Position numbers and translations under genes: made by a program
Source of the DNA: Clostridia bacterium
Lineage (GTDB): Bacteria > Bacillota > Clostridia > Lachnospirales > Lachnospiraceae
Assembly: GCA_910574835.1 (NCBI GenBank)
Contig: CAJTDE010000008.1
Coordinates: 62,001 to 126,000 of the forward strand
Direction of reading: 5' to 3'
Length of the DNA stretch: 64,000 nucleotides
The notes under the pieces: model-generated
What the model saw: only the letters and a program-made list of their open reading frames with translations
The model's database searches: none
What the model was told of the DNA's origin: nothing
Shown: in pieces, positions 12,619 to 50,801 of the stretch
How positions within the stretch are numbered: position 1 is the stretch's first letter
Layout: every line of letters begins with the position of its first letter

Positions 12619-12655
12619 GCTTCGGTACTGCACGGCGGCGCCGAAGCTCTTTTTT
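12619..12655 (+). terminator. Terminator after the binding-protein gene
   Basis: GCTTCGG (12619-12625) pairs with CCGAAGC (12641-12647), followed by TCTTTTTT. It lies inside the ABC operon and probably reduces read-through to the ATPase gene. Its T-run merges with the first repeat fragment of array A. Confidence 0.8.
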
Positions 12656-12860
12656 ACCCTATAGTGCTGTCGCGCGGCGACTATATAATAGTCCGGCTAA
12701 GAAATGTCAAGTAATTCTGAGAAATATTTTTTGCTGGATGGTAAAGTCGCAAAGGCGCACGAGAGAAACTTTCATGAGTGCCCTTTCGAATGAAAGTTTC
12801 TCTCAATACAGGTGCGTCGAAGTGACTTTACCCTTTAGTGCCATCGCGCAGCGATTTTAA
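12653..12860 (+). repeat. Structured mosaic repeat, array A
   Basis: A tail module (TAGTGCTGTCGCGCGGCGAC), then a small stem with arms GTCCGGC and GCTGGAT, then the core hairpin at 12741-12831, then a second tail with GCGCAGCGA. In the core, GTAAAGTCGC pairs with GTGACTTTAC, GGCGCAC with GTGCGTC, and GAGAGAAACTTTCAT perfectly with ATGAAAGTTTCTCTC. The same modules recur near 35.6 and 50.6 kb. The array sits between the terminator of the binding-protein gene and the ribosome binding site of the ATPase gene. Confidence 0.85.
12774..12860 (+). CDS. Candidate 28-codon leader ORF inside repeat array A
   Basis: The ATG at 12774 has GAGAG 8-9 nt upstream, buried in the inner stem. The product begins MSALSNESFSQYRCVEV and ends SAIAQRF. 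The stop TAA (12858-12860) is followed by ATA and then by GGAGG of the ATPase gene, 13 nt before that start codon. The same frame is open in copies B and C2. Differences between copies show no third-position bias, so coding is unproven; translational coupling or attenuation is an inference. Confidence 0.35.
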   Translation: MSALSNESFSQYRCVEVTLPFSAIAQRF

Positions 12861-12873
12861 ATAGGAGGTACTT

Positions 12874-14439
12874 ATGGAAACAGGCAAATATGTTCTTGAG
12901 ATGCGGCACATTTCCAAGAGCTTTCCGGGAGTAAAGGCACTGGATGACGTATCGCTGACCATAAAGGCAGGCACGGTACACGCGCTGATGGGGGAAAATG
13001 GAGCAGGAAAATCCACATTGATGAAATGCGCCTTTGGACTCTATCAGCCGGACGAGGGAGAGATAAGCATCGAGGGGAAAACAGTGGCGCTGCCCAATCC
13101 CAAGGCAGCTATGGTAGAAGGCGTGTCTATGATTCACCAGGAGCTGAACCCCATATTGACCCGGAATGTAATGGAAAATATCTGGGTAGGCAGAGTTCCG
13201 TATAAGAAAATTGCAGGCGTTCACTGGGCGGACGACAAGAAAATGTATGAGGATACAAAAAATCTTTTTGCTGATTTGGGCATTGACATAGATCCAAAGG
13301 AAAGCGTAAGCAGGCTGTCCGTATCCCACTGTCAGCTACTGGAGATTGTCCGGGCCGTATCCTACGGAGCTAAGGTAATTATTATGGATGAGCCAACCTC
13401 ATCCCTGACAGAAAGCGAATCGGAGCTTCTATTTGCAATTATAAAAAAGCTGACAGCCCAGGGAGTAGCCATTATCTATATCTCCCACAAAATAGAAGAG
13501 GTATTGGATATCACGGACGAGGTTACGGTGTTGCGCGACGGTCAGCTTGTAGGAAGCTGGCCCACCAGAGAGCTTGATATGGACAGTATCGTAAGCAAAA
13601 TGGTAGGCCGCGAGATGACGAACCGCTTTCCGGAGCTTACCCATACGCCGGGTGAAATATTTTTAGAGGTTTCTCATCTGACCTCTGCCAATCCTCATTC
13701 CTTTGTGGACGTAAGCTTTACCCTTCGCCGGGGTGAGATCCTTGGGGTGGGAGGACTGGTGGGAGCGCAGCGGACAGAGCTGATGGAAAGCATTTTCGGC
13801 TTGCGTCCCATAGCCTCGGGAACCATTTACATTGACGGGCAGGAGGTAAAGATCAAGAATCCACGGCAAGCGATTGCTCATAAAATCGCTTTGCTCACAG
13901 AGGAGCGCCGTGCTACGGGAATCGTTCCTATGCTGTCGGTAGGGGAAAATATTGTTCTGGCAAATCAGACGGCAAATCATGCCCGCTATACAGGGGGGAA
14001 GGGACTGTTGAATTACGCATCCAGAAATGAGGATGCGCAGAGATATGTAGATTCCCTGTCCATCAAAACACCGGGACTGAAAACACAGATTCAATACCTT
14101 TCCGGCGGCAATCAGCAGAAAGCGCTGCTGGGACGCTGGATGCTGCTGGAGCCGGATATTTTGATTATGGATGAGCCTACGAGGGGAATTGACGTAGGGG
14201 CAAAATATGAGATCTACTGTCTGATGGAGGAAATGGTACAAAAGGGAAAATGCGTCATTATGATCAGTTCTGAGATGCCGGAGCTGATGGGAATGTCCGA
14301 TCGGGTTATGGTTATGTGCGAGGGCCATCTGTCCGGTATCCTTACAAGAGAAGAAACTTCGGATGAGCGTATTATGTATCTTGCCAGCACCTATGAAAAG
14401 GGAGAGAGGAGCAACACAAATGCAAATAAAGAGATTTAA
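12874..14439 (+). CDS. Sugar ABC transporter ATPase (MglA/RbsA/XylG type)
   Basis: A protein of 521 residues with two fused ABC domains. The first has Walker A GENGAGKSTLM, an atypical signature LSVSHCQ and Walker B VIIMDEPTSSLTE. The second has the usual degenerate nucleotide site of this family (GGLVGAQRTELMES), with a good signature LSGGNQQKALLGRW and LIMDEPTRGIDVGA. It energises uptake through the next gene's permease. TAGGAGGT precedes the ATG, and the start overlaps the end of repeat array A's influence. The permease gene overlaps its 3' end by 20 nt. Confidence 0.95.
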   Translation: METGKYVLEMRHISKSFPGVKALDDVSLTIKAGTVHALMGENGAGKSTLMKCAFGLYQPDEGEISIEGKTVALPNPKAAMVEGVSMIHQELNPILTRNVMENIWVGRVPYKKIAGVHWADDKKMYEDTKNLFADLGIDIDPKESVSRLSVSHCQLLEIVRAVSYGAKVIIMDEPTSSLTESESELLFAIIKKLTAQGVAIIYISHKIEEVLDITDEVTVLRDGQLVGSWPTRELDMDSIVSKMVGREMTNRFPELTHTPGEIFLEVSHLTSANPHSFVDVSFTLRRGEILGVGGLVGAQRTELMESIFGLRPIASGTIYIDGQEVKIKNPRQAIAHKIALLTEERRATGIVPMLSVGENIVLANQTANHARYTGGKGLLNYASRNEDAQRYVDSLSIKTPGLKTQIQYLSGGNQQKALLGRWMLLEPDILIMDEPTRGIDVGAKYEIYCLMEEMVQKGKCVIMISSEMPELMGMSDRVMVMCEGHLSGILTREETSDERIMYLASTYEKGERSNTNANKEI

Positions 14440-15421
14440 TATGAAAGAATTTTTGATGAATTATGCGCTGTATCTTATTATGCTGCTCATCGTAATTGTG
14501 ATCGCATGCATTTCACCAAAATTTATTTCCCTTCGGGTAATACGTGACATTTTAACTCAAAGCTCTACCAGAATACTGGTAGCTCTCGGATGTATGTTTA
14601 TCATCGTATCCGGCTCGGCCGACCTGTCCGGAGGCCGTGTAGTCGGACTGGCCGCCGTAGTGTCCGGCTCTCTGGCGCAGCAGGCGACATACAGCAACCG
14701 GTTCTGGCCTCAGTTTGGCGAGCTTCCTGTGATTGTACCCATTCTGGCGTCTGTTCTGGTGGGACTTCTGGTAGGCGTGTGCAATGGTTATGCGGTAGCA
14801 AAGCTGAAGGTTCCGGCATTTCTGGCAACTCTTGGAATGCAGATGATTGCATACGGCGTGAACTGTCTTTACTTTAACAAAGCGCCGAACAATTCCCAGC
14901 CCTTGGGCGGCTACAAGGAATCCTTTGGAAATCTGGGAACAGGAGCTATAGCAGGAATTCCGATCTTGGTCATCATAGCTTTAAGCATATGTTTGGTCGT
15001 ATGGGTGGTACAGACCAGAACCTGTCTTGGCCGTGAGATCTTTGCCACAGGCGGCAACCCCAACGCGGCGCGGGTATCCGGTATTAATGTATTTAAGATT
15101 CTCATGATCACGTATATGATTGCCGGCGCCCTTTATGGCTTTGCCGGATGCCTGGAGGCGGCCAGGACGGGAAGCGCCACCAGCTCCTATGGCTTAAGCT
15201 ATGAGCTTGACGCTATTGCTTCCTGTATCGTGGGCGGCTGCTCCGCAGGCGGCGGAATCGGAACCGTGCCGGGCGTTATCGCAGGCGTATTGATATTCAA
15301 TGTTATCAATTATGGCCTGACTTTTATCGGACTTAGCTCCTACTGGCAGTTTGTGGTAAAGGGCCTGATTATCATTATTGCAGTGGCGATTGACGTAAGA
15401 AAATATGCTGGGAAAAATTAA
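14420..15421 (+). CDS. Sugar ABC transporter permease (MglC/RbsC family)
   Basis: A protein of 333 residues with about nine or ten membrane segments. The signature region VSGSADLSGGRVVGLAAVVSG and the EAA-like loop GREIFATGGNPNAARVSGIN are typical of monosaccharide permeases. The start at 14420 is used because GAGAGGAG lies about 10 nt upstream; it overlaps the ATPase gene. The overlap indicates translational coupling. Confidence 0.93.
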   Translation: MQIKRFNMKEFLMNYALYLIMLLIVIVIACISPKFISLRVIRDILTQSSTRILVALGCMFIIVSGSADLSGGRVVGLAAVVSGSLAQQATYSNRFWPQFGELPVIVPILASVLVGLLVGVCNGYAVAKLKVPAFLATLGMQMIAYGVNCLYFNKAPNNSQPLGGYKESFGNLGTGAIAGIPILVIIALSICLVVWVVQTRTCLGREIFATGGNPNAARVSGINVFKILMITYMIAGALYGFAGCLEAARTGSATSSYGLSYELDAIASCIVGGCSAGGGIGTVPGVIAGVLIFNVINYGLTFIGLSSYWQFVVKGLIIIIAVAIDVRKYAGKN

Positions 15422-15561
15422 TCAGGTATGATAAGATAAAGCATCTACAGGAAACGGCAAATCTATTTGCAGTTTTTGTAATAGAGAAAATGAATGTAGA
15501 GAAGGCAGGCATAAAGAACGTCATGTCTGCCTTTTACATAGGCATAAAGGAGTATTTGGCC

Positions 15562-16524
15562 ATGAAAAAAAGGAGCGGGTTTCGGCTTGCGGTTATTCTA
15601 TTGATTCTTCTTGCCATAGGAATGAGTGGTGCATGTCTATTACAAAAACAGCATAAGACGGACGTCAGCGAGCGGGTGCGGATAACGGCGATTCTGCCTC
15701 ACAATGATTATGGCTATTGGACAATAGTCAGAGACGGGATAGTGGAAGGCGGATTGGAATACGATGTTGATGTTAAGGTTGTGCTGCCCCGGATGAATTA
15801 TGATGTGCCTCAGATGACAGAGCTGATTCGGCAGGAGATAGCCGCCAAGACGGATGCTATCATTGTTCAGGGAATTGATAATGAAGATTATCTGGAAGCG
15901 CTGCAAAAAGCGGAAAGCCAGGGGATATTAATTGCATTGATTGATACTGATGTGGAAGAGCGCTTTCCCCATTTATATGTGGGAACAGATAACTATGCGG
16001 CGGGAATCCGGATCGGCGAGGCGGTGGTTCAGGCTACGGGCGGCTGCGGCACCATAGCGATTTTGTCCGGAGCGGAAAACTATCCGAACCTGGAGGAGCG
16101 CTGTGCCGGGATTCGGGAAGCAATCAAAGAGTATCCGGAGCTTACTATAGCATGTACGGAGTACAATCAGTATGATTCTCTGAGAGTCATAGAGAAGTAT
16201 TATACCATTGCCCGGGAGTATCCCAAGGCAGACACACTGGTATGCATAGAAGGAACCGGCGGACTGACACTAGGCCCTCGGTTGTCCGAGGAAACGCCTC
16301 TGTTCGAGCATATCGTGGTATTTGATATGACGGAGGAGAGCGCTCAGGGACTTTGCTCCGGAGCCTTTGACGGAATCATGACACAGCAGCAGAAAGAAAT
16401 GGGACGGATTGCTGTCAGGGAGATTCATGATTATCTGGAAAACGGCGGTGAATGGAATCGAAAAATATTGACGGATACGGAGTGGATTACCATAGAAGAT
16501 CTGGAGGAACAGCCGGATGAATAG
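15562..16524 (+). CDS. Membrane-anchored sugar-binding sensor protein (XylFII-like)
   Basis: A protein of 320 residues. The ATG at 15562 has AAAGGAG 8 nt upstream. An N-terminal hydrophobic segment (RLAVILLILLAIGMSGAC) could be a lipoprotein signal or anchor. The rest is a type 1 periplasmic-binding fold (ITAILPHNDYGYWTIVRDGIVEGG, DAIIVQGIDNEDYLEALQKAES). It overlaps a LytS/YesM kinase gene by 8 nt, which indicates that it senses a sugar for the kinase rather than transporting it, as described for XylFII-LytS-YesN of clostridia (inference). Confidence 0.8.
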   Translation: MKKRSGFRLAVILLILLAIGMSGACLLQKQHKTDVSERVRITAILPHNDYGYWTIVRDGIVEGGLEYDVDVKVVLPRMNYDVPQMTELIRQEIAAKTDAIIVQGIDNEDYLEALQKAESQGILIALIDTDVEERFPHLYVGTDNYAAGIRIGEAVVQATGGCGTIAILSGAENYPNLEERCAGIREAIKEYPELTIACTEYNQYDSLRVIEKYYTIAREYPKADTLVCIEGTGGLTLGPRLSEETPLFEHIVVFDMTEESAQGLCSGAFDGIMTQQQKEMGRIAVREIHDYLENGGEWNRKILTDTEWITIEDLEEQPDE

Positions 16525-18010
16525 GGGACAGAGCGGATCGATCAGCGTGCAGTATAAGAGGGGCTACTATATTATATTCGGCTGCGTCATCTTAATGTTT
16601 GCGGCAGCCTATCTCGGCAACTGGATGTTAAGCCGGGGTTATCAGAGTATGCTGGATGAGCTTTTAGAGCTGAATCAACTCTTTGTAGAGGTAGAGACTA
16701 CCAATATGAGTATCACGGACGCCTATCTGTATCTGCGGGAAAACAGTATAGAGGGATACCAGGGTGGAAAGGAAAATATTCAAAGGCAATCCCAGTTGGT
16801 AGAGCAGCAGGTGAAAAACGAATATTCCCGGGCGAAAATGGATTTGACCTGTATGACAGACACCTATCTGGAGGAATGTGATAAGCTGCTCCAAATGCTG
16901 GAAAGCTATCTTTCCAAGGAAAATCCCCAGGAGATCAGCAATGCCGACATAGACAGCCAGTATAGGGCGACACAGGAAATTATCAATTATATCAATACAA
17001 GCTTCAAGGATATCTACTCACTGGAGCTTACTGTTTCTCAAAAAAGAGAACAGGAAATGGAAAAGGTAAGCCGGAATATCAGCATCTTACAGGTGGGCCT
17101 TCTGCTGATGGTGCTGGTGATTTACTTAAAGCATAATCTCAAAATTATCCGGAATATTTCTGAGAGCCTAAGCCAGATGACTCAATTTGTGGAGCATATC
17201 AAAGGAAACCTGTATCATGGAGAACGGCTGGAGCTTAAGGCCGGAGAGGAGTTGTTTTTACTTGCCGATACCATCAATGATATGCTGGATATTATCCAGG
17301 AACAGGTAGGACAGCTGGAACAGGATAATCAGATACGGCAGCAGATTAAGGAAATGGAGATTGACAATCTCCGCCTGAAAAATGAGCTTCAAAGCAGTCA
17401 GATGGACTTGCTTCAGTCCAGGATAAACCCGCATTTCTTATTTAACACCTTAAATATGATCTCCAATTCCGCAGTGATGGAGGATGCGGAGCAGACCCGG
17501 ACGCTTATTGACATCACGGCCGAATATCTGCGTTACAATCTGGACAAGCTGACGAAAACCGTTTCTCTGAAAGAGGAGTTGGACAATCTGAAGGATTATA
17601 TTTATATTCAGAAATGCCGCTTTGAAGAGCGGTACGAGTTTGTGTTTCAACTGGACGCCCGGTGTGCGGATCAGAGGATGCCCTGTATGATTTTACAGCC
17701 CCTGGTGGAAAACTCCTTAAAACACGGGATTCACGATATGGTCAGCGGAGGAAGAGTTATCATTCGTACCCAGGCAGAGGACGCCTGCACTGTGATGGAA
17801 ATAGAGGATAACGGAATAGGCTTTCCGCAGGAATATCTTGCAAAGCTGCAAAGCGGAGAGTTTGAATATGAGAAGGATAACCATGTGGGGATTCGAAATA
17901 TCTATATGAGGCTCAAGCTGTTTTATAAAGGGAAGGTACAATTTAAGATAGAAAGTCACACAGGAAGAACGGTACTCCATATTGAAGTTCCATGTCAGGC
18001 AGGAACATGA
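16517..18010 (+). CDS. Sensor histidine kinase, YesM/LytS family
   Basis: A protein of 497 residues. Membrane segments lie at about 15-37 and 192-212, enclosing a mostly helical extracytoplasmic region. A cytoplasmic coiled coil follows, then the His_kinase domain (QSRINPHFLFNTLNMIS, phospho-acceptor His in NPHF) and a HATPase_c domain (LVENSLKHGI, IEDNGIGFP, GIRNIYMRL). It pairs with the response regulator 11 nt downstream, and its start overlaps the sugar-binding sensor gene. Confidence 0.93.
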   Translation: MNRGQSGSISVQYKRGYYIIFGCVILMFAAAYLGNWMLSRGYQSMLDELLELNQLFVEVETTNMSITDAYLYLRENSIEGYQGGKENIQRQSQLVEQQVKNEYSRAKMDLTCMTDTYLEECDKLLQMLESYLSKENPQEISNADIDSQYRATQEIINYINTSFKDIYSLELTVSQKREQEMEKVSRNISILQVGLLLMVLVIYLKHNLKIIRNISESLSQMTQFVEHIKGNLYHGERLELKAGEELFLLADTINDMLDIIQEQVGQLEQDNQIRQQIKEMEIDNLRLKNELQSSQMDLLQSRINPHFLFNTLNMISNSAVMEDAEQTRTLIDITAEYLRYNLDKLTKTVSLKEELDNLKDYIYIQKCRFEERYEFVFQLDARCADQRMPCMILQPLVENSLKHGIHDMVSGGRVIIRTQAEDACTVMEIEDNGIGFPQEYLAKLQSGEFEYEKDNHVGIRNIYMRLKLFYKGKVQFKIESHTGRTVLHIEVPCQAGT

Positions 18011-18021
18011 AGGAGGGTGAA

Positions 18022-32015: not shown

Positions 32016-35000
32016 ATGAGAAAACGTGCCTTAAAAAAAGAATTTTATATGGAAATTCGGAGAACTTTGAACCGTTTTCTGTCAATTCTTCTAATCAATG
32101 CCCTGGGTGTGGCTTTTTTTGCCGGTGTGCGGGCTTCCAAGCCGGATATGCGGCTGTCGGCGGATGCCTTTTTTGACGAGAGCAACCTTATGGATATCCG
32201 GGTAATGGGAACTCTGGGCATGACAGAGGAGGACGCTGAGGCGATTGCGGCGGTGGAAGGCGTGAAGGAGGTTATGCCTGTCCGTTCCGTGGATATGTTT
32301 GGTCAGCTTGGGGATCGTCAGCTGAATCTCCAGGTTATGTCACAGCCGGAAGAAATGAACCGGATTCATGTGAGAGAGGGACGGCTTCCAAAAGAGAAAA
32401 ATGAGTGTCTTGTGGACTACAATCTGCTGACCTCCGGCCTCTGCGTCATAGGAGAGGAGATTACCCTGGCATCCGGCACGGAGGATGAGACTTCGGACTT
32501 GGTGAACCAGGAGAGCTTTACCATTGTGGGGGCGGGGACCACTTCCTATTATATGTCTCTTGACCGGGGAACCACCGGTATCGGAAGCGGGAGCCTGGAC
32601 GGATTTCTGATTGTGCGCCCGGAGGTTTTTGAGCAGGATTATTATACCCAGATCTGCGTGACTGCGGAAGGGGCCTATGAGCTGACTTGCTATACGGAGG
32701 AATACGACAATCTGGTGGATGATCTGGTGGAGCGGATTGAGTCCATTGAAAAGGAGCGGTGCGATATCCGCTATGCAGAGATCCAGGAGGAAGGACAGGA
32801 AAAGATTGCGGATGCGGAAAAGGAAGTAGCCGACGGAGAGCAGAAGCTGAAAGATGCCAAGGAAGAGCTTGAGGATGCAAGGGTGAAGCTTGCGGACGCG
32901 GAAGAGAAGCTTGCCGACGGCAAAAAAGAGCTTGCTGACGGAGAGGCGGAATTTGCCGATAAGGAAAAGGAATTTCTGGACGGAAAGCAGGAGGTGGCCG
33001 ACGGCTGGAAGGAGCTGAATGAGGCGAAGGAAGAGCTGGTAAAGGCGACCTATCAGATACAGAAAGGCTATGCCGAATATGAGAAAAATAAGGCGGAGGT
33101 GGACGCAGGCTATGCGCAGCTTGCACCGTTTCAGGAGCAGCTTGTACAGATAGAGGATGGTCTTAGTCAGATAGGAGAGGGACTTGCTAAGGTTGAGAAC
33201 GGGATTGCTCAGGCAGAAGGCGGCCTTTTGGAGATTCAAGGTCAACTGCTTAAGATAGAAGAGGCCAGAAAAAGATTCGCAGATCTTTCTAATAAGCCGT
33301 CGGATCAGCTGACAGAGGACGAGAAAAAGGAATTGCTCCAATTGGCAGCAGAGGAACCTTATTGGGATGAGTCAGAAAAAAAGCTTGAGGAGAAGCAGAC
33401 AGAAATAGAGGCTCAACAGGCCGGTCTTGCGGCCCAACAGACCGAGCTTAAGGCCCGGCAGACCGAGCTTCTTTCAGCTCAGGCTCAGCTATCCCCCATA
33501 GTACAGGAAAACAAAGCAAAGCTGGACGCCGGAGCAGCCGCCTTAGCGGAGGGCAAGCGCAAGCTGGACGCAGGAAGCGATGAGGTAGACGCCGGAAACA
33601 GCAAGGCTTATGAGGCGGAACAGGAATTGCTGGAGGCAGAGGAAGAGCTTGCCGACGGCGAGAAAAAGTTAGCCGACGGACGCTCCGAGCTTGCGGATGC
33701 CCGCCAGACCTTAAAAGATGCGGAAACCGAGCTTGCGGATGCCAAGGCGGAATTTGCCGACGGGGAGGCAGAATATGAAGAAGCTCTGGAGGAAAATGAA
33801 GAGACCCTTGCGGATGCCAGGGTAAAGATTGCAGATGCCAAACAGGAGCTTGCGGATTTAAAGCAGCCGGAGTGGTATGTACTGGACCGCCAGTACATTC
33901 AGACCTATGTGGAGTACGGCAATGACGCAGACCGCATCGGAGCTATCGGAGAGGTATTCCCGGCCATTTTCTTTTTGGTCGCTGCTCTTGTAAGCCTTAC
34001 TACCATGACACGCATGGTGGAGGAACAGCGCACCCAGATCGGAACCTTGAAGGCATTGGGCTATGGAAAGGGTTCCATTGCCTCCAAATATATTTTGTAT
34101 GCCCTGCTGTCAAGTCTTTTGGGAAGCCTCATCGGACTTGTGGCCGGACAGAAGATTCTCCCGGCAGTCATTATAAGCGCCTATAAGATTCTCTACAACA
34201 ATCTGCCCGACATCCTGACGCCGCTGAATCCGGAATATTCCGTAACGGCCGCCGCCGTTGCCGTTTCCTGCACCACTCTTGCCGCTGTTGCCGCCTGCTA
34301 CAGGGAGCTGAACGCAGTTCCGGCGAATCTGATGCGCCCGGCCGCTCCGAAGTCCGGGAAACGTGTGTTTCTGGAATATATCGGTTTTCTCTGGAGGCAT
34401 CTGACATTCAGTCAGAAAGCGGCGGTCCGCAATCTGGTGCGTTACAAAAAGCGGTTCTTTATGACCATTTTCGGAATCGGCGGCTGTATGGCGCTGCTTT
34501 TGGTGGGCTTTGGGATTAAGGACTCCATTCTTCATATTGGAAACGGACAGTTTGGGAATGTATTTGATTATGACGGGTCTATCGGCATAGATAAGGATGC
34601 GGACGCTCAGGAGCGTGAGGAGCTTGTAAAGCAGATTGAGGGCGACGAACGTATCCTCCACCATATGAGGGTTTTGGAGACCGCCGTGGATGCGGAGGCC
34701 GGAGGAGCGCCCCGAAGCGCCTATTTGATAGTACCGGAGTTTGAAGAAGAGCTTGACACCTACATTCATCTGCGGAATCGGACAACAAGAGAACACTACG
34801 CACTGGACAGCCAGGGCATTGTCATCACAGAAAAGCTTGCACGGCTTCTCGGGGTATCAAAGGGAGATACGATTGTCTTGAAGGAGGATGATACCAAGGC
34901 CGTTGAAGTAAGAGTGGCTCATATCACAGAGCAGTATTTTATGCATTATGTGTATATGAGCCGGGAGCTTTATGAAAGCCTCTATGGGGAAGCACCGGAA

Positions 35001-35546
35001 TGGAATCAGTGGCTTATAAAAAATGACCGGCAGGACGAAGCCTTTGAAGAAGAGCTGCGGACAGAGTATATCCGGTATGACGCAGTGGCGGACGTAGACT
35101 TTATCAGCGGTACGGCGGAACGTGTAGCGGATATGCTCAAAAGTATGGATTTGATCATCTATGTTCTGGTGATTGCGGCGGGGCTTCTTGCCTTTGTGGT
35201 GCTCTATAATCTCAATAACATCAACATCAATGAGCGCAGGAGGGAGCTTGCCACCTTGAAGGTACTTGGTTTCTTCGATCAGGAGGTTTCCGCCTACGTG
35301 AACCGGGAAAATGTACTGCTCACGGTGATCGGAACCGGAGTTGGCGTAGGTCTTGGAATCCTGCTCCACCGCTTTGTGGTTCAGACGGCGGAGATTGATA
35401 TGCTGATGTTCGGAAGAGACATTGCACCTGCGAGCTATGTTTACAGTGTACTTTTAACCTTCGTATTCTCCGCATTTGTGAACGGGGTCATGTTCTTTAA
35501 GCTGCGGAAGATTGATATGGTGGAATCCCTAAAAAGCGTAGAATAA
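32016..35546 (+). CDS. Giant FtsX-like ABC permease with a 370-residue coiled-coil insertion
   Basis: A protein of 1176 residues; the ATG at 32016 has CGGAG 6 nt upstream. A first membrane helix near 20-40 is followed by an extracytoplasmic MacB-like region, then a coiled coil from about 248 to 621 made of imperfect repeats such as ELADGEAEFADKEKEF and KKLADGRSELADARQ. The FtsX core follows with helices near 645 and 690-750, a second extracytoplasmic domain, and helices near 1045, 1105 and 1150. Such proteins export or sense peptides or lipids at the envelope. The stop codon lies inside a fragment of repeat array B. Confidence 0.85.
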   Translation: MRKRALKKEFYMEIRRTLNRFLSILLINALGVAFFAGVRASKPDMRLSADAFFDESNLMDIRVMGTLGMTEEDAEAIAAVEGVKEVMPVRSVDMFGQLGDRQLNLQVMSQPEEMNRIHVREGRLPKEKNECLVDYNLLTSGLCVIGEEITLASGTEDETSDLVNQESFTIVGAGTTSYYMSLDRGTTGIGSGSLDGFLIVRPEVFEQDYYTQICVTAEGAYELTCYTEEYDNLVDDLVERIESIEKERCDIRYAEIQEEGQEKIADAEKEVADGEQKLKDAKEELEDARVKLADAEEKLADGKKELADGEAEFADKEKEFLDGKQEVADGWKELNEAKEELVKATYQIQKGYAEYEKNKAEVDAGYAQLAPFQEQLVQIEDGLSQIGEGLAKVENGIAQAEGGLLEIQGQLLKIEEARKRFADLSNKPSDQLTEDEKKELLQLAAEEPYWDESEKKLEEKQTEIEAQQAGLAAQQTELKARQTELLSAQAQLSPIVQENKAKLDAGAAALAEGKRKLDAGSDEVDAGNSKAYEAEQELLEAEEELADGEKKLADGRSELADARQTLKDAETELADAKAEFADGEAEYEEALEENEETLADARVKIADAKQELADLKQPEWYVLDRQYIQTYVEYGNDADRIGAIGEVFPAIFFLVAALVSLTTMTRMVEEQRTQIGTLKALGYGKGSIASKYILYALLSSLLGSLIGLVAGQKILPAVIISAYKILYNNLPDILTPLNPEYSVTAAAVAVSCTTLAAVAACYRELNAVPANLMRPAAPKSGKRVFLEYIGFLWRHLTFSQKAAVRNLVRYKKRFFMTIFGIGGCMALLLVGFGIKDSILHIGNGQFGNVFDYDGSIGIDKDADAQEREELVKQIEGDERILHHMRVLETAVDAEAGGAPRSAYLIVPEFEEELDTYIHLRNRTTREHYALDSQGIVITEKLARLLGVSKGDTIVLKEDDTKAVEVRVAHITEQYFMHYVYMSRELYESLYGEAPEWNQWLIKNDRQDEAFEEELRTEYIRYDAVADVDFISGTAERVADMLKSMDLIIYVLVIAAGLLAFVVLYNLNNININERRRELATLKVLGFFDQEVSAYVNRENVLLTVIGTGVGVGLGILLHRFVVQTAEIDMLMFGRDIAPASYVYSVLLTFVFSAFVNGVMFFKLRKIDMVESLKSVE

Positions 35547-35785
35547 AAGTTACTCTCATTACAGGTGCGCCGAAGCGACTTTACCCTTTAGAGCCGTCGC
35601 GCAGCGGTTATAATAGTCCAGCTAAGAAAAGTCAAGTGTTTATAAGAAATACCTTTGGCTGGACAGTAAAGTCGCAAAGGCGCACGAGAGGAACTTTTAT
35701 GAGCGCCCTTTCGAATAAAAGTTACTCTCATTACAGGTGTGTCGAAGCGACTTTACCCTTTAGTGCCGTCACGCAGCGACTATAG
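35541..35785 (+). repeat. Structured mosaic repeat, array B
   Basis: It starts with the 3' half of a core hairpin (GAATAAAAGTTACTCTC onward), overlapping the stop codon of the permease gene, then a tail module, then a stem with perfect arms GTCCAGC and GCTGGAC, then a full core hairpin (35666-35756; GTAAAGTCGC with GCGACTTTAC, GGCGCAC with GTGTGTC) and a final tail ending ACGCAGCGAC. It ends 13 nt before the addB start codon. Confidence 0.85.
35699..35785 (+). CDS. Candidate 28-codon leader ORF inside repeat array B
   Basis: ATG at 35699 with GAGAGG 7 nt upstream, in the hairpin stem. The product begins MSALSNKSYSHYRCVEA and ends SAVTQRL, with stop TAG 13 nt before the addB start, the same distance as in array A. 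The truncated half-copy at 35542-35612 is also open in this frame. It may be a leader peptide coupled to addB or simply a by-product of a conserved repeat. Confidence 0.35.
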   Translation: MSALSNKSYSHYRCVEATLPFSAVTQRL

Positions 35786-35798
35786 AATAGGAATAAGT

Positions 35799-38700
35799 AT
35801 GTCATTACAATTTATTTTCGGTAATTCGGGTTCAGGGAAATCCTATACCCTCTATCAAAGCATTATCCAAGAATCAAGAGAGCATCCGGATCAGAAAATC
35901 CTGGTCCTGGTGCCGGAGCAGTTTACCATGCAGACCCAGAAAGATCTGGTAACCATGCACCCCGACGGAGGCATCCTGAATATTGATGTCTTAAGCTTCC
36001 AGCGCCTTGCCTACCGCGTATTTGAGGAAACAGGAATCCAGGTGGGAAAGATTCTGGAGGAGACGGGAAAAAATCTGGTACTCCGAAAAGTTGCCCAGGA
36101 GCACAAGGACGAGCTGAAAATCCTCGGCGGAAATTTAAAAAAGACCGGCTACATCAACGAAATCAAATCCCTTATCTCAGAGCTTACCCAATACGCAGTA
36201 ACGGAGGACGAGCTTGAAAAATTCACGGAAGTCAGCAAAAACAAACCTCACCTCTACTGGAAGCTTCGGGATCTCCAGGTACTTTACAAGGCTTTTCACG
36301 CATACCTGGCGGATCAATACATCACGGCGGAGGAGCTGTTGGAGGTGCTTTGCCAGGCTGTGGATCGCTCGGAGCTTATAGGCAGCAGCGAAATAGTACT
36401 GGACGGCTTCACCGGCTTTACCCCCATCCAGAATAAATTAATGCAGAAGCTGATGCAGTATGCAAAAAAAGTAACGGTAACAGTTACCATAGACAGCCGG
36501 GAAGACCCTTACCGCATCCAGGGCGAGCATCAGCTTTTTTACATGAGCCGGAAAACCATTGCAGCTTTGACGAATCTGGCAGGGGAGGCGGGCGTTTCCG
36601 TAGAGGAGCCTGTCATCGTCCGTCCCTCCGGACAGTCCCGATTTGCGGAAAATGGCGCCCTCTTTGCCCTGGAGCAGAATCTGTTCCGCCTGCACCGCAG
36701 AGCCTTTGAGGAGAAGCCGGATCAGATAAGCCTTCATCTTCTGCGCAATCCTTCGGAGGAAACCGCCTGGACAGCCGCACAGATCCGCCGTCTTATCCGG
36801 GAACAGGGATATCACTACCGGGACTTTGCGGTGATTACGGGAAATATGGAGGCTTACGGCCATTGCCTGGAACGGATTTTCCCGGAATACGGGATTCCCT
36901 GTTTCCTGGATTACAAGCGAAGCGTTCTGAACAATCCTTTCGTAGAATTTTTACGTGCGCTTTTGGAAATGACGGAGCAGGATTTTACCTATGAGACGGT
37001 ATTTCGCTTTCTCCGAAGCGGCCTGTCCGGTATGCGGCGGGAAGAAACGGATCTTCTGGAGAATTACGTACTGGCTCTGGGAATCCGGGGCCGGAAGAAA
37101 TGGGGCGGCCGTTTTATCCGAAGCTATAAAGGGCTGACCGAGGAAGCGCTTTTGGAGATTGACAGCCTGCGTCAGCAATTTGCGGAAATTGTCCTTCCCT
37201 TTGACGAAGCGGTGCGGAAAAAGGGCGTGGATGTGCGGACACGGACCACAGCGCTGTACCGCCTGATTGAAAAACTGGAGATTCAAAAAAAGCTTTCCGT
37301 CTTTGAAGAGCGTTTTCAAAGAGAGGGAAATCAGGTTTTGGCAAAGGAATATCACCAGATTTATCCGATTGTCATGGATTTGCTGGATAAGCTGGTGGAT
37401 CTTCTGGGCGATCAGAAGCTTACCGCCAGAGAGTACCGGGAGATTTTGGAGGCCGGCTTTGCGGAGGCCAGAGTAGGCGTGATTCCTCCGGGCGTGGATC
37501 AGGTAGTGGCCGGCGATATGGAGCGCACCCGCCTTAAGGATGTAAAGGTACTGTTTTTCCTGGGAGTAAATGAGGGAAGCGTGCCGAAAAATACCGGACG
37601 CACCGGTCTTCTGTCGGATATGGAGCGGGAACAGCTTAAGGCCCAGGGAATGGATCTGGCTCCTACGGCAAGAGAGCAGGGCTATATCCAGAGGTTTTAT
37701 CTGTATCTTAATCTGACTAAGCCTTCCAAGAGGCTCTATGTGTGCTGCAGCCTTCTGGATGGCAGCGGTAAGGCTCTGCGGCCCTCTTATCTGATGAATG
37801 TGCTTAAGGGATTATTCCCGGAAATGGAGCTGAAAAAGGAAGAGGGATGGCAGCAGGAGCTTCCGGCAACGCCGAAGGAGGGATTGCGCCTTTTGATAGA
37901 GGGACTCCGTACATACCGGGCAGGGGAGGAAAATAAGAAGTTTTATGAGCTTTACCGCTGGTATGCTGCCCGGGAGCAGTATGAGGAAAAGCTTGGGGAG
38001 CTTATGGAGGCCGCATTTTCCCGCCATACGGACAGCCGTCTGGGAAGGGCGGTGGCTCATGCCCTCTACGGAACGGTTCTGGAAAACAGTGTGACCAGAC
38101 TGGAGCAGTATGCGGCCTGCGCCTACGCTCATTTTCTGATGTACGGCCTGAAGCTTTCGGAGCGGGCAAAGTACGAATTTGCCCCGGTGGATATGGGAAA
38201 TATTTTTCATAAGACTTTGGAGCTTTTCTCCAAACGTCTTGAGGACAGCAGCTATACCTGGCGGGACATTCCCGAGGAGGTTCAGGGGGCCTGGGTGGAA
38301 GAGTGCATGGATCTGGTGACAGCGGACTACGGGAATACCGTCCTCCGGAGCACGGCCCGCAATGCCTACGCAGCGGAGCGGATGAAGCGGATGATGAAGC
38401 GGACCATCTGGGCGCTTGGGCGGCAAATTCAGAAAGGTTTGTTTGTGCCGGAGAATTATGAGATTTCCTTTTCAGGGGTGTCGGATCTGGAGGCGGTGAA
38501 TATCTCTCTTTCGCCGGAGGAGGAGCTTCGTCTTAAGGGGCGTATTGACCGGATGGATACGTGTGAGGAGGAGAAAAACGTCTATGTAAAGGTTATTGAC
38601 TATAAATCAGGAAGTACTTCTTTTCAGCTTTTGTCTCTGTATCATGGCTTGCAGCTTCAATTGGTGGTGTATCTGAACGCGGCTATGGAGCTGGCGGCAA

Positions 38701-43141: not shown

Positions 43142-43144
43142 AAA

Positions 43145-44879: not shown

Positions 44880-44980
44880 AAATGCAGTAAAAGGATGGAA
44901 TTATTGAATACCGGATTCCGGTGTGTGACGTACCATAGTATCTGCGGCTTTCTGCTGATGAAAAGGATTGAGTAAACATT

Positions 44981-45033: not shown

Positions 45034-45043
45034 GATTTTGTAT

Positions 45044-46473: not shown

Positions 46474-47460
46474 ATGAAGGATAGAAAAATACAGTGGCAT
46501 CCGGGGTTTGTGGCGGCTATGAATTTGGAATTTGAAGAAAATAGGATGGATCTTGTTTATGAGAAGGAATATAATTTGAATACAAAGCCGCTGGAGATCG
46601 ATCTTCTGGTGATTAAGAAGGAGCCGGAGGTTGTGCTGGTGAATGAGATTGGAAAGCTGTTTCGGGGGCATAATATTGTGGAGTATAAGTCGCCGTTGGA
46701 TGGACTGGATATTGACTCTTTTTATAAGGCGGGGGCGTATGGATGTCTTTATAAGGCTTTGGGAAGCTCGGTTGATGAAAGGGCGGCTGATGATATTACT
46801 GTTTCTATTATACGTGATACAAGGCCGGAAGGGTTGTTTCGCTATTTTGAGGAGCATGGTATTGAGGTGCTGAATCCCTATGCGGGTATTTATTATGTTT
46901 TGGGGGCGGTTTTGTTTCCGACGCAGATTGTTGTGGGAAGAGAGCTGGAAAGGGATGGACATATATGGATTAAGGCCCTTTCGGATAGGGTGGAGAAGCA
47001 AGAGATGAAGGAGTTCCTGAAGAAAGTAAATTGTCTTACGCAAAAATTTGATCGGGAGCTTGCGGATTCTGTGTTGGAAGTCAGTATACGGGCAAATAGG
47101 CAGGTGGTAGGAGAGTTGAGAGGAGAGGATGGCATGTGTGAAGCATTGTTGGAAATTATGGCGCCGGAGATTAATCAGATTGTTTTGGAAGAAACTCAGA
47201 AAGTAGCACAGGAAGTGACGCAGAAAGTAACACAGAAAGTAACGCAAGAAGTAACAAAAGAGGTAACTCGGGAAGTAACACAAGAAGTAACTCGGGAAGT
47301 AACTCGGGAAGTAACACAAGAAGTAACTCGGGAAGTGACAAGAGACTTATCAAGAGAAACAGCAAGTAAGATGTTGAAATCCGGGAAGTTTACGGTGGAG
47401 GAGATTCATGAGTATGTTCCCAAGCTTTCCATTGAAGAAATTCGGGCATTGGAAGAATGA
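46474..47460 (+). CDS. PD-(D/E)XK-like protein with a C-terminal EVT(R/Q) repeat tail
   Basis: A protein of 328 residues; the ATG at 46474 follows GAGGGAGAGGAG by 6 nt. The N-terminal domain has the possible nuclease core LEIDLLVIKKEP and LFRGHNIVEYKSP (D, then E-x-K). Residues about 240-290 are a run of four-residue units, EVTQ, EVTR or KVTQ, predicted to be helical, followed by a conserved tail (MLKSGKFTVEEIHEYVPKLS). I recognise it as a family common in Lachnospiraceae without assigned function. It is monocistronic with a terminator 100 bp downstream. Confidence 0.6.
   Translation: MKDRKIQWHPGFVAAMNLEFEENRMDLVYEKEYNLNTKPLEIDLLVIKKEPEVVLVNEIGKLFRGHNIVEYKSPLDGLDIDSFYKAGAYGCLYKALGSSVDERAADDITVSIIRDTRPEGLFRYFEEHGIEVLNPYAGIYYVLGAVLFPTQIVVGRELERDGHIWIKALSDRVEKQEMKEFLKKVNCLTQKFDRELADSVLEVSIRANRQVVGELRGEDGMCEALLEIMAPEINQIVLEETQKVAQEVTQKVTQKVTQEVTKEVTREVTQEVTREVTREVTQEVTREVTRDLSRETASKMLKSGKFTVEEIHEYVPKLSIEEIRALEE
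47194..47345 (+). repeat. In-frame 12-bp tandem repeat
   Basis: About twelve copies of a unit close to GAAGTAACNCRR encode the EVTR/EVTQ tetrapeptide repeat. The middle copies (GAAGTAACTCGG and GAAGTAACACAA) are nearly identical, which points to slippage-driven length change without frameshift. Confidence 0.9.
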
Positions 47461-47557
47461 ATGGAATGTTTTGCTGTTTAGAATGAAAAGCGGTATTTAA
47501 AAAAATGGTATTATGGTTTTGCCAATAGGCGGAGTTTTCACTTTTATAGAAAATTTT

Positions 47558-47606
47558 AAAGCCCTGTCCGTAAGCTTGATTTGAGCATAACGGACAGGGC
47601 TTTTGT
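47558..47606 (+). terminator. Terminator after the PD-(D/E)XK-like gene
   Basis: AAAGCCCTGTCCGT (47558-47571) pairs exactly with ACGGACAGGGCTTT (47590-47603), followed by TGTTTTT. Confidence 0.9.
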
Positions 47607-47754
47607 TTTTGCAATGAGTGGGGTGGACAGATACACTCCGGGTCATTTTTCTTATGTATGAGTTCTGCTTGCTCGGATAGATCGTCTGACGAAGGATTTA
47701 TTATAGAGGGGTGAAAGGATGAAAGGCGGAATACAGTGATTTTTTTGGTATTAC

Positions 47755-47783
47755 TTGCCTTTGAGTTTTGCAGGTGATACTAT
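47755..47783 (+). promoter_or_regulatory. Probable promoter of the second sensor operon
   Basis: TTGCCT (47755-47760), a 17-nt spacer and TACTAT (47778-47783), both partial matches, about 105 bp before the binding-protein start. Confidence 0.4.
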
Positions 47784-47889
47784 TATATAAATTAATTTAA
47801 TGAGTGAACAAAGTGCGGCGTTCTGTTTTTGCATTGTGCTGCGGCGTTTGAGGGATAGTGAGAAAGAAAAAGGCGAGGCGGAAGAATAT

Positions 47890-48921
47890 ATGGCGGAGAG
47901 AAATGAAAAAAAGAAGATGACAGCGGTTCTGCTTGTGCTTCTGCTCACAGGACTGGGGATTTACGGGCTGGTGGTGTTTTTGGGAAGGCTTCAGGTGACG
48001 GCTATGGAGTCGCCTAAGAAGAATGAGATTTACGGTGCGTATTATGTGCTGATTGAGGACGGGCATGACAGTACGCTTTGGGATTCGATCTATGAGGGAG
48101 CCAGAAAGGAAGGGGAGGAGAACTGCAATGCTTATGTGGAGTATCTTGGGAAAAACCTGACGGCGGATTATACGGTGCAGGATAAGCTGCGGATTGCCAT
48201 TGATTCGGGTGTGGACGGGATTATTTTAAATGGGGGCAGCTCGGAAGAAACGGACCGGCTTCTGGAGGAGGCGGTGGGAAAGGGGATTCCGGTGGTGACT
48301 GCTCTGGATGACAGCGCCTACAATCTGCGGAAGTGTTTTGTGGGGGTGAATAATTATATTCTGGGGCAGGAGTACAGCCGGCTTTGCTTTGAGCTACTCT
48401 CGGAGAATCCAAGGGACAGCCGTGTGGTGGTTTTGATGGATTCGTCGTCTACGGGGACCGGGAAGAATACCATGTTCTGGGGGATGCGGGAAACGTTGGA
48501 TGAGAAGATCCGGGAAACAGGATGGGGATATGAGATTAAGGTGCAGGCGGTTTCCATTGACAGCAGCAATGCATTTATGACGGAGGAAACCATAAGAAAA
48601 CTCCTGGTGACTGAGGGGGAGCATCCGGATATTTTGATTTGCCTGAGTGAGACGGATACGCGCCGGGCTTATGAGGCTGTGGTGGATTATATTAAGGTGG
48701 GGGAGGTTCGGATTCTGGGATATTATCAATCCGATGGGATTTTGGATGCGATTCAAAAGAAGATTATTTCCTCTACGGTCGTTGTGGACGGGGAGCAGCT
48801 TGGGCGCTTTTGTGTGCAGGCCCTTACGGAATACCGGGAGACAGGGTACGTAAATGGGTACTTTCCAATAGATACGTATGTGATTGACGAAACCAATGTG
48901 GGACAGTATCTTGTGCCGTAA
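47890..48921 (+). CDS. Membrane-anchored sugar-binding sensor protein
   Basis: A protein of 343 residues from the ATG at 47890. A single N-terminal membrane helix (TAVLLVLLLTGLGIYGLVVFL) has no lipobox, so the domain is anchored outside. The rest is a type 1 periplasmic-binding fold (DSTLWDSIYEGARKEGEE, VDGIILNGGSSEETDRLLEEAVGKGIPVV is its central part, and VVVLMDSSSTGTGKN). It precedes a HAMP-type YesM kinase by 100 bp, matching a sensory role like that of the protein at 15562. Confidence 0.78.
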   Translation: MAERNEKKKMTAVLLVLLLTGLGIYGLVVFLGRLQVTAMESPKKNEIYGAYYVLIEDGHDSTLWDSIYEGARKEGEENCNAYVEYLGKNLTADYTVQDKLRIAIDSGVDGIILNGGSSEETDRLLEEAVGKGIPVVTALDDSAYNLRKCFVGVNNYILGQEYSRLCFELLSENPRDSRVVVLMDSSSTGTGKNTMFWGMRETLDEKIRETGWGYEIKVQAVSIDSSNAFMTEETIRKLLVTEGEHPDILICLSETDTRRAYEAVVDYIKVGEVRILGYYQSDGILDAIQKKIISSTVVVDGEQLGRFCVQALTEYRETGYVNGYFPIDTYVIDETNVGQYLVP

Positions 48922-49021
48922 AAGCAAGAGAACTTTGGATAAAACTGCTGCGGATTTGAAACGGTCGGAATGATGGAAGCTTTTGAAATGGTATTTTTAC
49001 GGAGGACGGGGAGTAAAGCGC

Positions 49022-50515
49022 ATGAAGAAATGGAAGAATCTGTCTATTCAATTGAAGCTGATTGCAGCGTTCCTGCTTACTTTTTTTCTTATTTTTTTCG
49101 TGAATCTTATTTTATATGCCAATATTAATTATATGTCGGGGAGAATCGATCAGGTTTACCAGAGCAACAGCAGCCTCAATGAGCTGTCGGAGGCTTTAAG
49201 CGCCGTACACGGCAGTATGACAGAGTATTTGAATGTGAAAAGCTCGGACACTCTGGATTCTTATTACCGGAACAGCCAGGAATTGAATGGGCGGCTTCAG
49301 GAGCTGAATACGGAGATTTGCAGCGATGAGCTTTTGATGATGGAGCGCAATATCCGCAATATGACTCTGGAATATCTGCATATCACGGACGAGGCGACCC
49401 AGGCAAAGCGCGGCCGGAATATTGAAAAATACCGCCTGCGCTATGAGGAAGCCGTAGAGCGGTTTGAGTATATCAATACATATATTTACAGCCTGAATAA
49501 CCGCAGATTTAAGACGAATACCAACAGCTATGAAGCCCTTGCCAGAGCCTTGAGCCGGTTTGAACTGGTGGGGACGGTGATTCTGGCGGCTGCGGGCGTG
49601 TTGATTACGGCTTTGATTTATGCCATTACTAAGAGTATTACGGGGCCTTTGAGCCATTTGGCCCTGAGAGCCAATGAGGTTGCGGAGGGAAATCTGGAGG
49701 TGGATCTGGTTCCGGTACGGAGCATGGACGAGGTGGGCATTGTGACTGCGGCTTTTAACCAGATGGTGTCAAGCATCCGTATTCATATGGAACGGATTAA
49801 GGAAAATATGGAAAAGGAAGCGGCCATGAAGGAGAAGGAGCTTATGATGGAGGGGCATTTGAAGGATGCGCAGCTTAAGTATCTCCAGGCCCAGATCAAT
49901 CCCCATTTTCTGTTTAATACGCTGAATGCGGGGGCGCAGCTCGCTATGATGGAGGGAGCGGACAAGACCTGTCTTTTTGTGGAAAATATGGCGGATTTCT
50001 TCCGGTACAATGTGAAGAAGATTAACCAGGATGCGACCATACGGGAGGAATTGGAGCTGGTGGACAGCTATCTTTATATTCTGAATGTGCGCTTCGGGGG
50101 TGAGATTCACTTTCGGAAGCAGGTGGATGAGACCCTTCTTGACCTGCGCGTTCCAAGCATGATTCTGCAGCCCATTGTGGAAAATGCGGCTAATTACGGT
50201 ATCCGGGGCATTGACTGGGAGGGATGGATTGAGCTTCTTCTTTACCGGGAGCCGGAGCGTATCTGTATCTCCATTCGGGACAACGGCGTTGGAATGAGCA
50301 AGGAGAAGATTCGGGAGATTATGGAGGGAAAGGTCCGGGAGGCGGATTTGTCCAGAAATTCCACGGGTATCGGTCTGGGAAATGTGATCAGCCGGCTGCG
50401 GCTTTATTATAACCGGGAAGAGGTTTTTGAGATTCAAAGCGACGGGGAAGGCAAAGGGACGCAGGTGTTACTGTATCTTCCCTTGGAGGATATTGCGGAG
50501 CTTGGAAAACAGTAG
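49022..50515 (+). CDS. Sensor histidine kinase, YesM family with HAMP domain
   Basis: A protein of 497 residues from the ATG at 49022 (GGGGAG 9 nt upstream). Membrane helices lie near 13-35 and 178-200, with a helical extracytoplasmic region between. A HAMP domain (about 200-255) leads into a short coiled coil and the His_kinase domain (LQAQINPHFLFNTLNAGAQ). The ATPase part has PIVENAANYGIRG, RDNGVGMSKE and GIGLGNVISRLRLYY. Its TAG stop overlaps the first base pairs of repeat array C, which separates it from its response regulator gene. Confidence 0.93.
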   Translation: MKKWKNLSIQLKLIAAFLLTFFLIFFVNLILYANINYMSGRIDQVYQSNSSLNELSEALSAVHGSMTEYLNVKSSDTLDSYYRNSQELNGRLQELNTEICSDELLMMERNIRNMTLEYLHITDEATQAKRGRNIEKYRLRYEEAVERFEYINTYIYSLNNRRFKTNTNSYEALARALSRFELVGTVILAAAGVLITALIYAITKSITGPLSHLALRANEVAEGNLEVDLVPVRSMDEVGIVTAAFNQMVSSIRIHMERIKENMEKEAAMKEKELMMEGHLKDAQLKYLQAQINPHFLFNTLNAGAQLAMMEGADKTCLFVENMADFFRYNVKKINQDATIREELELVDSYLYILNVRFGGEIHFRKQVDETLLDLRVPSMILQPIVENAANYGIRGIDWEGWIELLLYREPERICISIRDNGVGMSKEKIREIMEGKVREADLSRNSTGIGLGNVISRLRLYYNREEVFEIQSDGEGKGTQVLLYLPLEDIAELGKQ

Positions 50516-50801
50516 TGACTTTACCCTTAAGTGCTGTCGCGTAGCGACTCTACCGGTAAAGTCGCAAAGGCACACGAGAGGAACTTTTATGAGTGCCCTT
50601 TCGAATAAAAGTTTCTCTCATTAACAGGTGTGCCGAAGTGACTTTACCCTTTAGTGCCGTCGCGCAGCGGCTCTACCGGTAAAGTCGCAAAGACGCACGA
50701 GAGGAACTTTTATGAGTGCCCTTTCGAATAAAAGTTTCTCTCAATACAGGTGCGTCGAAGTGACTTTACCCTTAAGTGCTGTCGCGCAGCGACTTAGATA
50801 G
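50514..50801 (+). repeat. Structured mosaic repeat, array C (two core hairpins)
   Basis: Order: end of a core hairpin (AGTGACTTTACCC), tail (GTCGCGTAGCGAC), core C1 (50555-50648), tail (GTCGCGCAGCGG), core C2 (50678-50770), tail (GTCGCGCAGCGAC). Both cores are preceded by CTCTACC instead of the GTCC stem seen in arrays A and B. The middle stem is GGCACAC with GTGTGCC in C1 and GACGCAC with GTGCGTC in C2, so paired positions change together. It lies between kinase and regulator genes. Confidence 0.88.
50712..50801 (+). CDS. Candidate 29-codon leader ORF inside repeat array C
   Basis: ATG at 50712 with GAGAGG 7 nt upstream. It begins MSALSNKSFSQYRCVEV and ends SAVAQRLR; the G of its TAG stop is the first G of the GGAGG of the response regulator gene. 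The matching ORF in core C1 (50589-50624) is cut to 11 codons by a one-base insertion. Coding status is unproven. Confidence 0.35.
   Translation: MSALSNKSFSQYRCVEVTLPLSAVAQRLR

Follow-up and report, generated by a model that had tools for sequence, protein, structure and literature searches.

Structured repeats of a Lachnospiraceae genome that probably integrate inside Shine–Dalgarno sequences

The window analysed here is a stretch of 64,000 nucleotides from a Clostridia bacterium of the Lachnospiraceae (contig CAJTDE010000008.1, positions 62,001–126,000), and the genome carrying it, an assembly of 5.01 Mb in 133 contigs, is called G000 below. The window contains three arrays of a repeat that we call family 1. 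A sequence-only reading of this DNA had placed these arrays at 12653–12860, 35541–35785 and 50514–50801 and had given the middle stems of four cores as GGCGCAC/GTGCGTC, GGCGCAC/GTGTGTC, GGCACAC/GTGTGCC and GACGCAC/GTGCGTC; the sequence bears out the positions, and the four stems read exactly so. It made no mention of the fact that, in gene orientation, every array of the window runs into a Shine–Dalgarno sequence (SD) and a start codon. The features are as follows:

12653–12681, + strand: solo tail hairpin left over from an older unit (tail profile match)
12690–12739, + strand: left module with the stem GTCCGGC/GCTGGAT (profile match with E 4e-16; fold); AG at 12690–12691 is the junction dinucleotide
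12740–12855, + strand: core hairpin and tail hairpin, a 116-nt unit (profile/alignment)
12856–12868, + strand: linker, AATAG junction and SD AGGAGG at 12863–12868 (sequence)
12874–12876, + strand: start codon after the first array, sugar ABC transporter ATPase (family scan)
35541–35616, + strand: 3′ half-unit and tail, overlapping the upstream gene's stop codon and ending in AATAG (sequence)
35617–35664, + strand: left module (profile match)
35665–35780, + strand: core and tail unit (profile/alignment)
35781–35792, + strand: linker, AATAG and a weak SD (AGGA) (sequence)
35799–35801, + strand: start codon of addB, downstream of the second array
50516–50548, + strand: solo tail hairpin adjoining the stop codon of the upstream gene at 50513–50515 (tail profile match)
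50555–50671, + strand: core and tail, unit 1 of a pair arranged head-to-tail and lacking a left module (alignment)
50678–50793, + strand: core and tail unit 2 of the same pair (alignment)
50794–50805, + strand: linker, ATAG and SD AGGAGG at 50800–50805 (sequence)
50812–50814, + strand: start codon of the gene after the third array (sequence)
58338–58414, + strand: degenerate copy of a second repeat family (family 2, see below), followed by TTGGAATAGGAG and ATG (weak profile match, E 8.6e-4)

Thus the second and third arrays (35541 and 50516) adjoin the stop codon of their upstream gene. The gene starting at 50812 gave no NCBIfam family at 1e-20 when its first 300 residues were scanned. The earlier reading had not recognised the repeat family, and indeed Rfam 15 gave no family at the gathering score within the repeats, the sole match in the window being a lysine riboswitch at 5118–5292. 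A search of 12600–12900 up to E 1 returned only an unrelated microRNA family (E 0.86, below gathering). A known RNA family is therefore ruled out as the identity of the repeat.

A full family-1 unit has about 175 nt and consists of a left hairpin (module type GTCCGGC...GCCGGAC), a three-part core hairpin with stems of 11, 7 and 15 pairs, and a small tail hairpin (GTCGC-GCA-GCGAC). In 87 of the 102 distinct units core and tail add up to 116 nt, and just one of the 15 units of other length differs by a multiple of three. The 14-mer GTAAAGTCGCAAAG of the core, with at most one mismatch, matches the genome at 132 places (71+61) as compared to 0+2 for the reversed pattern, which is far beyond chance. 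Our array set comprises 71 regions around 100 of these 132 places and around nine further places, which are partly the same copies; three more regions lie in the window, and the remaining 32 matches lie outside the set. In the regions taken, 112 cores (E 1e-10 or better) form 85 arrays, of which 65 have a single unit, 15 two units, three have three and two have four. Within the arrays the units follow head-to-tail on one strand, whereby the clustering joined only copies of the same strand. Units with a left module can come after the AATAG of the previous unit, and tandem core and tail units without left module (for example at 50555 and 50678) are linked by other short linkers. The repeats had been described as a mosaic of shuffled modules as in BIME/REP elements; the mosaic holds, but the likeness to BIMEs does not, given the head-to-tail order on one strand and the docking at SDs.

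The proposed fold was scored with 38 base pairs in an alignment of the 102 distinct units. Standard pairs occupy 98.4% of the cells, and two-sided changes were found in 89 cells compared to a mean of 27.7 in shuffles. The covariation score of 0.138 (shuffles 0.103, sd 0.003) was not reached by any of 500 shuffles; for these statistics the repeat copies are related by descent. When all pairs of columns with a distance of four or more were ranked by a G-test with APC, the top five were pairs of the stems (105–117, 34–53, 17–78, 16–79 and 1–94), and hence the covarying stems claimed from four cores persist in the larger alignment. In the window the stretch 12685–12895 folds with −74.4 kcal/mol compared to −47.2 in shuffles (z −7.1). 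The wobble pairs are asymmetric: there are 238 G·U or U·G cells and only 40 A·C or C·A cells, which would be wobbles on the opposite strand, and among 29 pairs with either wobble G·U is the more frequent in 21 and A·C in four. The predominance of G·U over A·C suggests that the fold belongs to the sense strand, and the consensus folds with −46.3 kcal/mol on this strand as compared to −19.1 on the reverse. Part of the G·U excess may be mutational, as the unpaired columns are also skewed (107 C/T versus 28 A/G changes). With this reservation we conclude that it is the sense (mRNA) strand that folds, either as mRNA or as top-strand single-stranded DNA. The earlier proposal of selection on RNA or DNA structure stands in this respect and is narrowed to one strand.

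For 77 of the 85 arrays, the first 45 nt downstream hold both an SD-like motif and a start codon in the same orientation. ORFs were called in a simple way and the SD criterion was permissive for this count, and the loci, here as throughout except for the gene-start survey of G007 and part of the empty-site comparison described below, were chosen for having the repeat. The motif AG^GAG (^ marks the junction) is found within 16 nt after the tail in 74 of 83 cases, 70 of them at a distance of 8–9 nt, and the bases preceding GAGG are conserved within the unit. A complete AGGAGG follows the tail in 60 of 83 cases, compared to 219 of the 1,281 starts in the related genome G007 at which no repeat end is present (odds ratio 12.7, p 5e-26), arrays and background starts being taken from different genomes. 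Among the eight arrays that miss the combination of SD and start codon, just two have AGGAG after the tail (L042 and L047).

The downstream genes scanned, 20 of the 77, have no common theme; six gave no family at 1e-20, and the 14 families found include addB, ilvD, glmS, hisS, glutamate racemase, prephenate dehydrogenase, DAHP synthase, a xylulokinase-like kinase, two PTS subunits and an ABC ATPase. The repeat does not appear to mask the SD: across 75 arrays the predicted accessibility of the SD is 0.477 with the repeat, 0.473 with native upstream sequence and 0.390 with shuffled repeat, the real repeat exceeding its shuffled version in 48 of 75 arrays. Masking is thus ruled out by an accessibility equal to that of native sequence, and this equality fits an element that keeps the gene usable.

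The most direct evidence for insertion comes from a comparison with G007, the closest relative of G000 as judged by addB and ilvD. At one clean empty site (site 9) the flanks in G007 are 100% and 97% identical to those in G000. Here G007 reads TTTTTACAG^GAGGATTAG and G000 reads TTTTTACAG^TCCGGC...AATAG^GAGGATTAG, so that the repeat lies inside the SD at AG^GAGG. The native GAGGATTAG is retained and there is no second GAGG. As this SD is located within the last codons of the upstream gene, the end of the upstream protein changes from LQED-stop to LQSG-stop, with the stop supplied by the repeat. At a second site, of 82% identity, the empty sequence is TGTAAAG^GAGG and the filled one TGCAAAG^TCTAG...ATTAG^GAGG, and the upstream protein ends in CKGGVL-stop or CKV-stop, respectively. 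This copy is common to G000 and G007 and hence should be an older insertion. The native GAGG survives at both sites. A clean insertion in a near-identical pair was found at one site only, in draft genomes; many other apparent empty pairs proved to be artefacts from the antisense strand, duplicates or remnants of tails, or were too divergent for the junction to be located, and were left out of the junction claim.

A broader comparison, made by eye and at various identities, covers 14 family-1 sites (at least 14 among the matches listed) for which a repeat-free relative can be read, and 13 of the 14 relatives have GGAG shortly before the start codon. The remaining site is addB of the window and is mixed: G002 has GTAAGCGTTTATG and G012 has GTAATCGTATG, both without AGGAG, and G006 has AAAGGAG. 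This speaks against a native SD at addB. The AATAGGA there may have come with the repeat or with a rearrangement, and the array itself may be rearranged, to judge from its beginning with a half unit fused to a stop codon. Species of the genus also differ in whether they carry the repeat at addB, glmS and ilvD, and where they do the arrays are not the same. Orthologous arrays in G000 and G007 could be compared for 34 of the 85; 12 are of equal length, eight differ by 1–9 nt and 14 by more than 20 nt. Most of the differences are gains or losses of units, which are explicable by recombination and were left out of the insertion count. Left ends outside arrays begin with AG in 22 of the 27 listed, a count that is partly circular, as the profile was built from ends picked to begin with AGTC, and in which three pairs are orthologous. 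The AG at both junctions may stem from the target or from the element.

Of the 16 genomes of the genus, seven are rich in copies (G000, G002, G004, G005, G007, G012 and G013, each with at least 19–26 matches); four weak matches occur in G006, and the other eight lack any. A further 25 genomes from the family and order likewise gave no match. A search of family genomes with a covariance model, as the earlier reading had proposed, gave matches in three of 250 under stricter filters, namely the genome of origin itself, G044 from a different genus with 14 scored copies, and G215 with one weak partial match. In all four G044 copies that were read AGGAGG follows the tail. A phage or plasmid as vehicle is ruled out by the absence of matches in viral contigs (exact pattern) and in plasmids and phages (blastn).

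A shared mobility enzyme was sought among Y1 (RAYT-type) transposases, Y2 transposases as in IS91/Helitron-like elements, and reverse transcriptases as expected for a retroelement or group II intron derivative. Each is missing in at least one of the seven carriers, which is weak evidence as the genomes are incomplete drafts. No Y1 protein (PF01797) was found in the draft genomes of the carriers G004 (94% complete) and G007 (97% complete), members being present in the non-carriers G001, G008 and G015; one Y1 locus of G000, read by eye, looks like an ordinary IS200 copy. Y2 (PF04986) is found in one of the seven carriers (G002) and also in the non-carriers G003 and G011. In these drafts reverse transcriptase (PF00078) occurs in six of the seven carriers, being absent in G012, and also in the non-carriers G001, G010, G014 and G015. 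Likewise, no autonomous copy was recognised among the left and tail modules of 1.595 Mb of G007 and the G000 loci. In this material one of 63 left ends stands without a core and 19 tails are solo; behind the solo left end, the next ORFs of at least 80 residues among those beyond 2487 are first on the opposite strand.

The unit contains a small ORF with the SD GAGAGG and an ATG in the inner stem. This ATG is kept in 84 of 85 last units, and the frame is open to within 20 nt of the gene start or beyond in 68 of 76 cases, compared to one and four of 76 for the other two frames. Nevertheless, the substitutions in 87 units (19 synonymous, 53 non-synonymous and 3 stop) match the neutral null (20.7, 51.4 and 3.0) and reveal no coding selection. 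Despite the open frame we therefore do not claim a coding role; the frame may simply be inherited.

Family 1 is not the only repeat at this site. In 1.595 Mb of G007 we called 1,406 gene starts, and comparing their 250-nt upstream regions all against all yielded clusters of 32, 27, 12, 10 and 4 members, whose labels rest on up to six members each. The cluster of 27 is family 1 and that of 12 has no common register. Two further distinct repeat families also adjoin SDs: the cluster of 32 (family 2) reads CAGTAATATCC...GGATATTACGGAACTGGAAT followed by GGAGG or AGGAGG, and the cluster of 10 (family 3) reads GAAACACCCTGCGGGTATACC...AAGGAAA followed by GGAG. Family 2 covaries in 21 of 31 pairs (score 0.314 versus 0.161 in shuffles, 56 copies from several species) with a strand bias in the same direction (126 versus 19), and family 3 forms two small hairpins (z −2.0 to −2.6 in four copies folded). 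In G007, GGAG stands within 16 nt downstream of 27 of 39 family-2 and nine of 22 family-3 units, and seven and nine units, respectively, run into an apparent next unit; after family-2 units GGAG is found in nine of 21 cases in G000 and in 30 of 48 in other species. Family 2 occurs in five of 250 family genomes. Six of its loci were read in G044, G204, G215 and G276; GGAG closes four of them, and the remaining two continue into other repeats. In one pair of loci with 89–92% identity (L244/L243) a family-2 unit is present or absent directly before TGGAGG, and the empty site retains a family-2-like end. One sample each of families 2 and 3 gave just eukaryotic families in Rfam, below the gathering score.

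On this evidence we suggest that the family-1 arrays probably are non-autonomous mobile repeats which integrate in one orientation, on the mRNA strand, inside SDs at AG^GAGG. The suggestion is based on the observed copy number, orientation and junction, on the covarying fold of the sense strand, on the polymorphism between relatives and on the native GAGG at two sites. The unit would leave the native GAGG in place and add a new AATAG upstream of it. The downstream gene would thereby retain a working SD, and operons would tolerate a structured insert. Where a left module stands between units, the array would have arisen by re-insertion at the regenerated SD, and a left-module unit after AATAG is indeed what is expected if a new copy enters there, whereas the tandem core and tail arrays without left module look, by their arrangement, like recombination products. 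A putative integration activity acting in trans would recognise the SD, the fold would be needed for mobility or for harmless transcription, and the element would be mainly selfish.

One could object that insertion is random, that the unit brings its own AATAGG(AGG) and that only those copies survive which leave a working SD. This would explain why nearly all copies lie before genes and why the unit shows conserved bases ahead of GAGG, and the two repeat-free relatives without AGGAG at addB agree with it. It is nevertheless unlikely, since at the clean site GAGGATTAG is native and stands without a second GAGG, since GAGG is present in the empty relative of the 82% site, since left ends outside arrays begin with AG (a partly circular count) and since AGGAG is found even after two arrays for which no gene was called. 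Even less likely, in our view, is a cis-regulatory leader RNA that defines a regulon, with hairpins that bind a protein, a metabolite or the ribosome and that were spread by ordinary duplication. The 14 family-assigned downstream genes share no theme, the repeat is missing before orthologous genes in sister species and the accessibility of the SD equals that of native upstream sequence, although the fixed position and orientation at the SD, the covariation on the sense strand and an accessibility above that of shuffled repeats in 48 of 75 arrays would all suit such a leader.

The asymmetric hairpin ends and the lack of a clear target duplication recall REP/RAYT- or IS200-type elements, which are moved as single-stranded DNA. 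Y1 transposases of this kind cut after CT, and CT indeed stands at both junctions on the bottom strand. That family 1 moves in this way is as improbable to us as the leader RNA, for PF01797 is absent in the carriers G007 and G004 and present in three non-carriers, the preferred fold is on the top strand, and the G000 Y1 locus read resembles ordinary IS200. The kept ATG and the frame open far more often than the other two could also mean that the small ORF is translated and coupled to the downstream gene, as in a MIRU-like coding element. We rate this no higher than random insertion, because the substitution classes match the null, because 14 of the 15 units of unusual length would shift the frame and because the open frame may be inherited.

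As for the mechanism of the preferred SD integration, we lean weakly towards a step at the RNA level or linked to nascent mRNA rather than a classical transposase, because of the sense-strand fold and because distinct families have the site in common. A wider idea, which is tentative and rather doubtful, is a general SD-integration route used by at least three distinct structured families, which may work through RNA copied at the complementary CCTCCT. Copying of an AGGAGG transcript at CCTCCT would explain the single target of distinct elements, the sense orientation, the sense fold and the lack of a shared transposase.

By analogy the closest known kind of element is the mycobacterial MIRU. 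In the parts of a 2025 review used here (PMC12548453), MIRUs are apparently mobile units at the translation start of the downstream gene, whose expression is little disturbed; their insertion point is the start codon, and their ORF is coupled at −4 nt. Family 1, compared with this description and not with MIRU sequences, is likewise found at translation starts, in the same orientation (77 of 85); its internal frame, open in 68 of 76 cases, might couple to the gene. It differs in that its junction lies inside the SD (AG^GAGG, two sites) and not at a start codon with coupling at −4 nt, and in being a covarying multi-hairpin of a Lachnospiraceae host whose ORF is without coding selection. The pneumococcal BOX repeats are, as far as the sections of PMC3049150 drawn upon go, modular, structured, multi-copy, intergenic and partly co-transcribed, and over-represented between convergent genes. 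Family 1 shares the first four of these properties, but is placed at the SD, ahead of genes and in a single orientation; again the comparison is with the description and not with the boxA-boxB-boxC sequence. REP/BIME elements and REPINs with RAYT are, in the passages taken from PMC3116915 and PMC3733652, palindromic miniature mobile repeats in clusters, REPs having 20–40 nt, often opposite orientation and a position mainly downstream of coding regions. Family 1 likewise consists of clustered palindromic miniature repeats that are probably mobile, yet its units of 116–175 nt are arranged head-to-tail at SDs, and a Y1 gene was not found in two carriers (drafts). We found no SD-targeting repeat in the open-licence literature searched, which does not prove absence, and passages of PMC8040213 and PMC2267715 describe no repeat of this kind.

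An element that lands in SDs could colonise operons cheaply, and in the course of a lineage it would alter a large number of 5′ ends and also some C-termini. SDs would then be possible integration hot spots, which bears on the evolution of bacterial 5′ untranslated regions, and the repeats offer a natural series of hairpin leaders as well as an integration specificity that can be tested. Among the matches listed, the named carriers are mostly MGBC isolates, which we take to come from the mouse-gut catalogue, and Lachnospiraceae MAGs.

The gene starts of G007, the closest relative by addB and ilvD of the genome containing the window (G000), hold a second structured repeat family that adjoins the Shine-Dalgarno sequence (SD) and whose copies are often arranged in tandem. 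This family 2 repeat shows strong covariation and was found in 5 of 250 Lachnospiraceae genomes.

L305:18121-18328, G007 stretch, family 2 copy (example locus)
L315:12216-12500, G007 stretch, family 2 copy (example locus)
Window 58338-58414, degenerate family 2 copy

A third SD-abutting repeat, family 3, has the pattern GAAACACCC...AAGGAAAGGAG and consists of tandem units of ~50 nt, each with two small hairpins; 23 matches lie in stretches from G007.

L265:4623-4780, G007 stretch, family 3 (example)

A longer repeat ending in ATTCAGATTGGAGG or similar is located immediately 5′ of gene starts in four stretches (L328, L336, L311, and L309) that cluster together by sequence, and may be either a fourth family or a piece of a duplicated gene cassette.

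As to family 1, the main structured repeat, only one of 63 left modules stands without a core (L304 of G007, position 2606), and the nearest ORFs after it are on the opposite strand. In G215, another genome of this bacterial family, an element at about 1512-1600 of stretch L346 matches the family 1 model weakly and is followed by GGAACCGGAATAGGAG.

At most of the sites compared, G000 and G007 share 97-100% identity, but around glmS (L195/L197), a gene downstream of a family 1 array, the figure is about 75% upstream and 85% downstream, which suggests that this region has undergone recombination or replacement.

The window also contains a lysine riboswitch.

Window 5118-5292, match to RF00168 (118 bits)

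The 12-nt tandem repeats forming an in-register run at 47189-47344 are probably coding, and two stretches of repeats spaced at multiples of 21 nt upstream of addB (32789-33857) are probably heptad-like coding repeats. At 56972-57180 two arms of 33 nt with 94% complementarity are spaced 143 nt apart.
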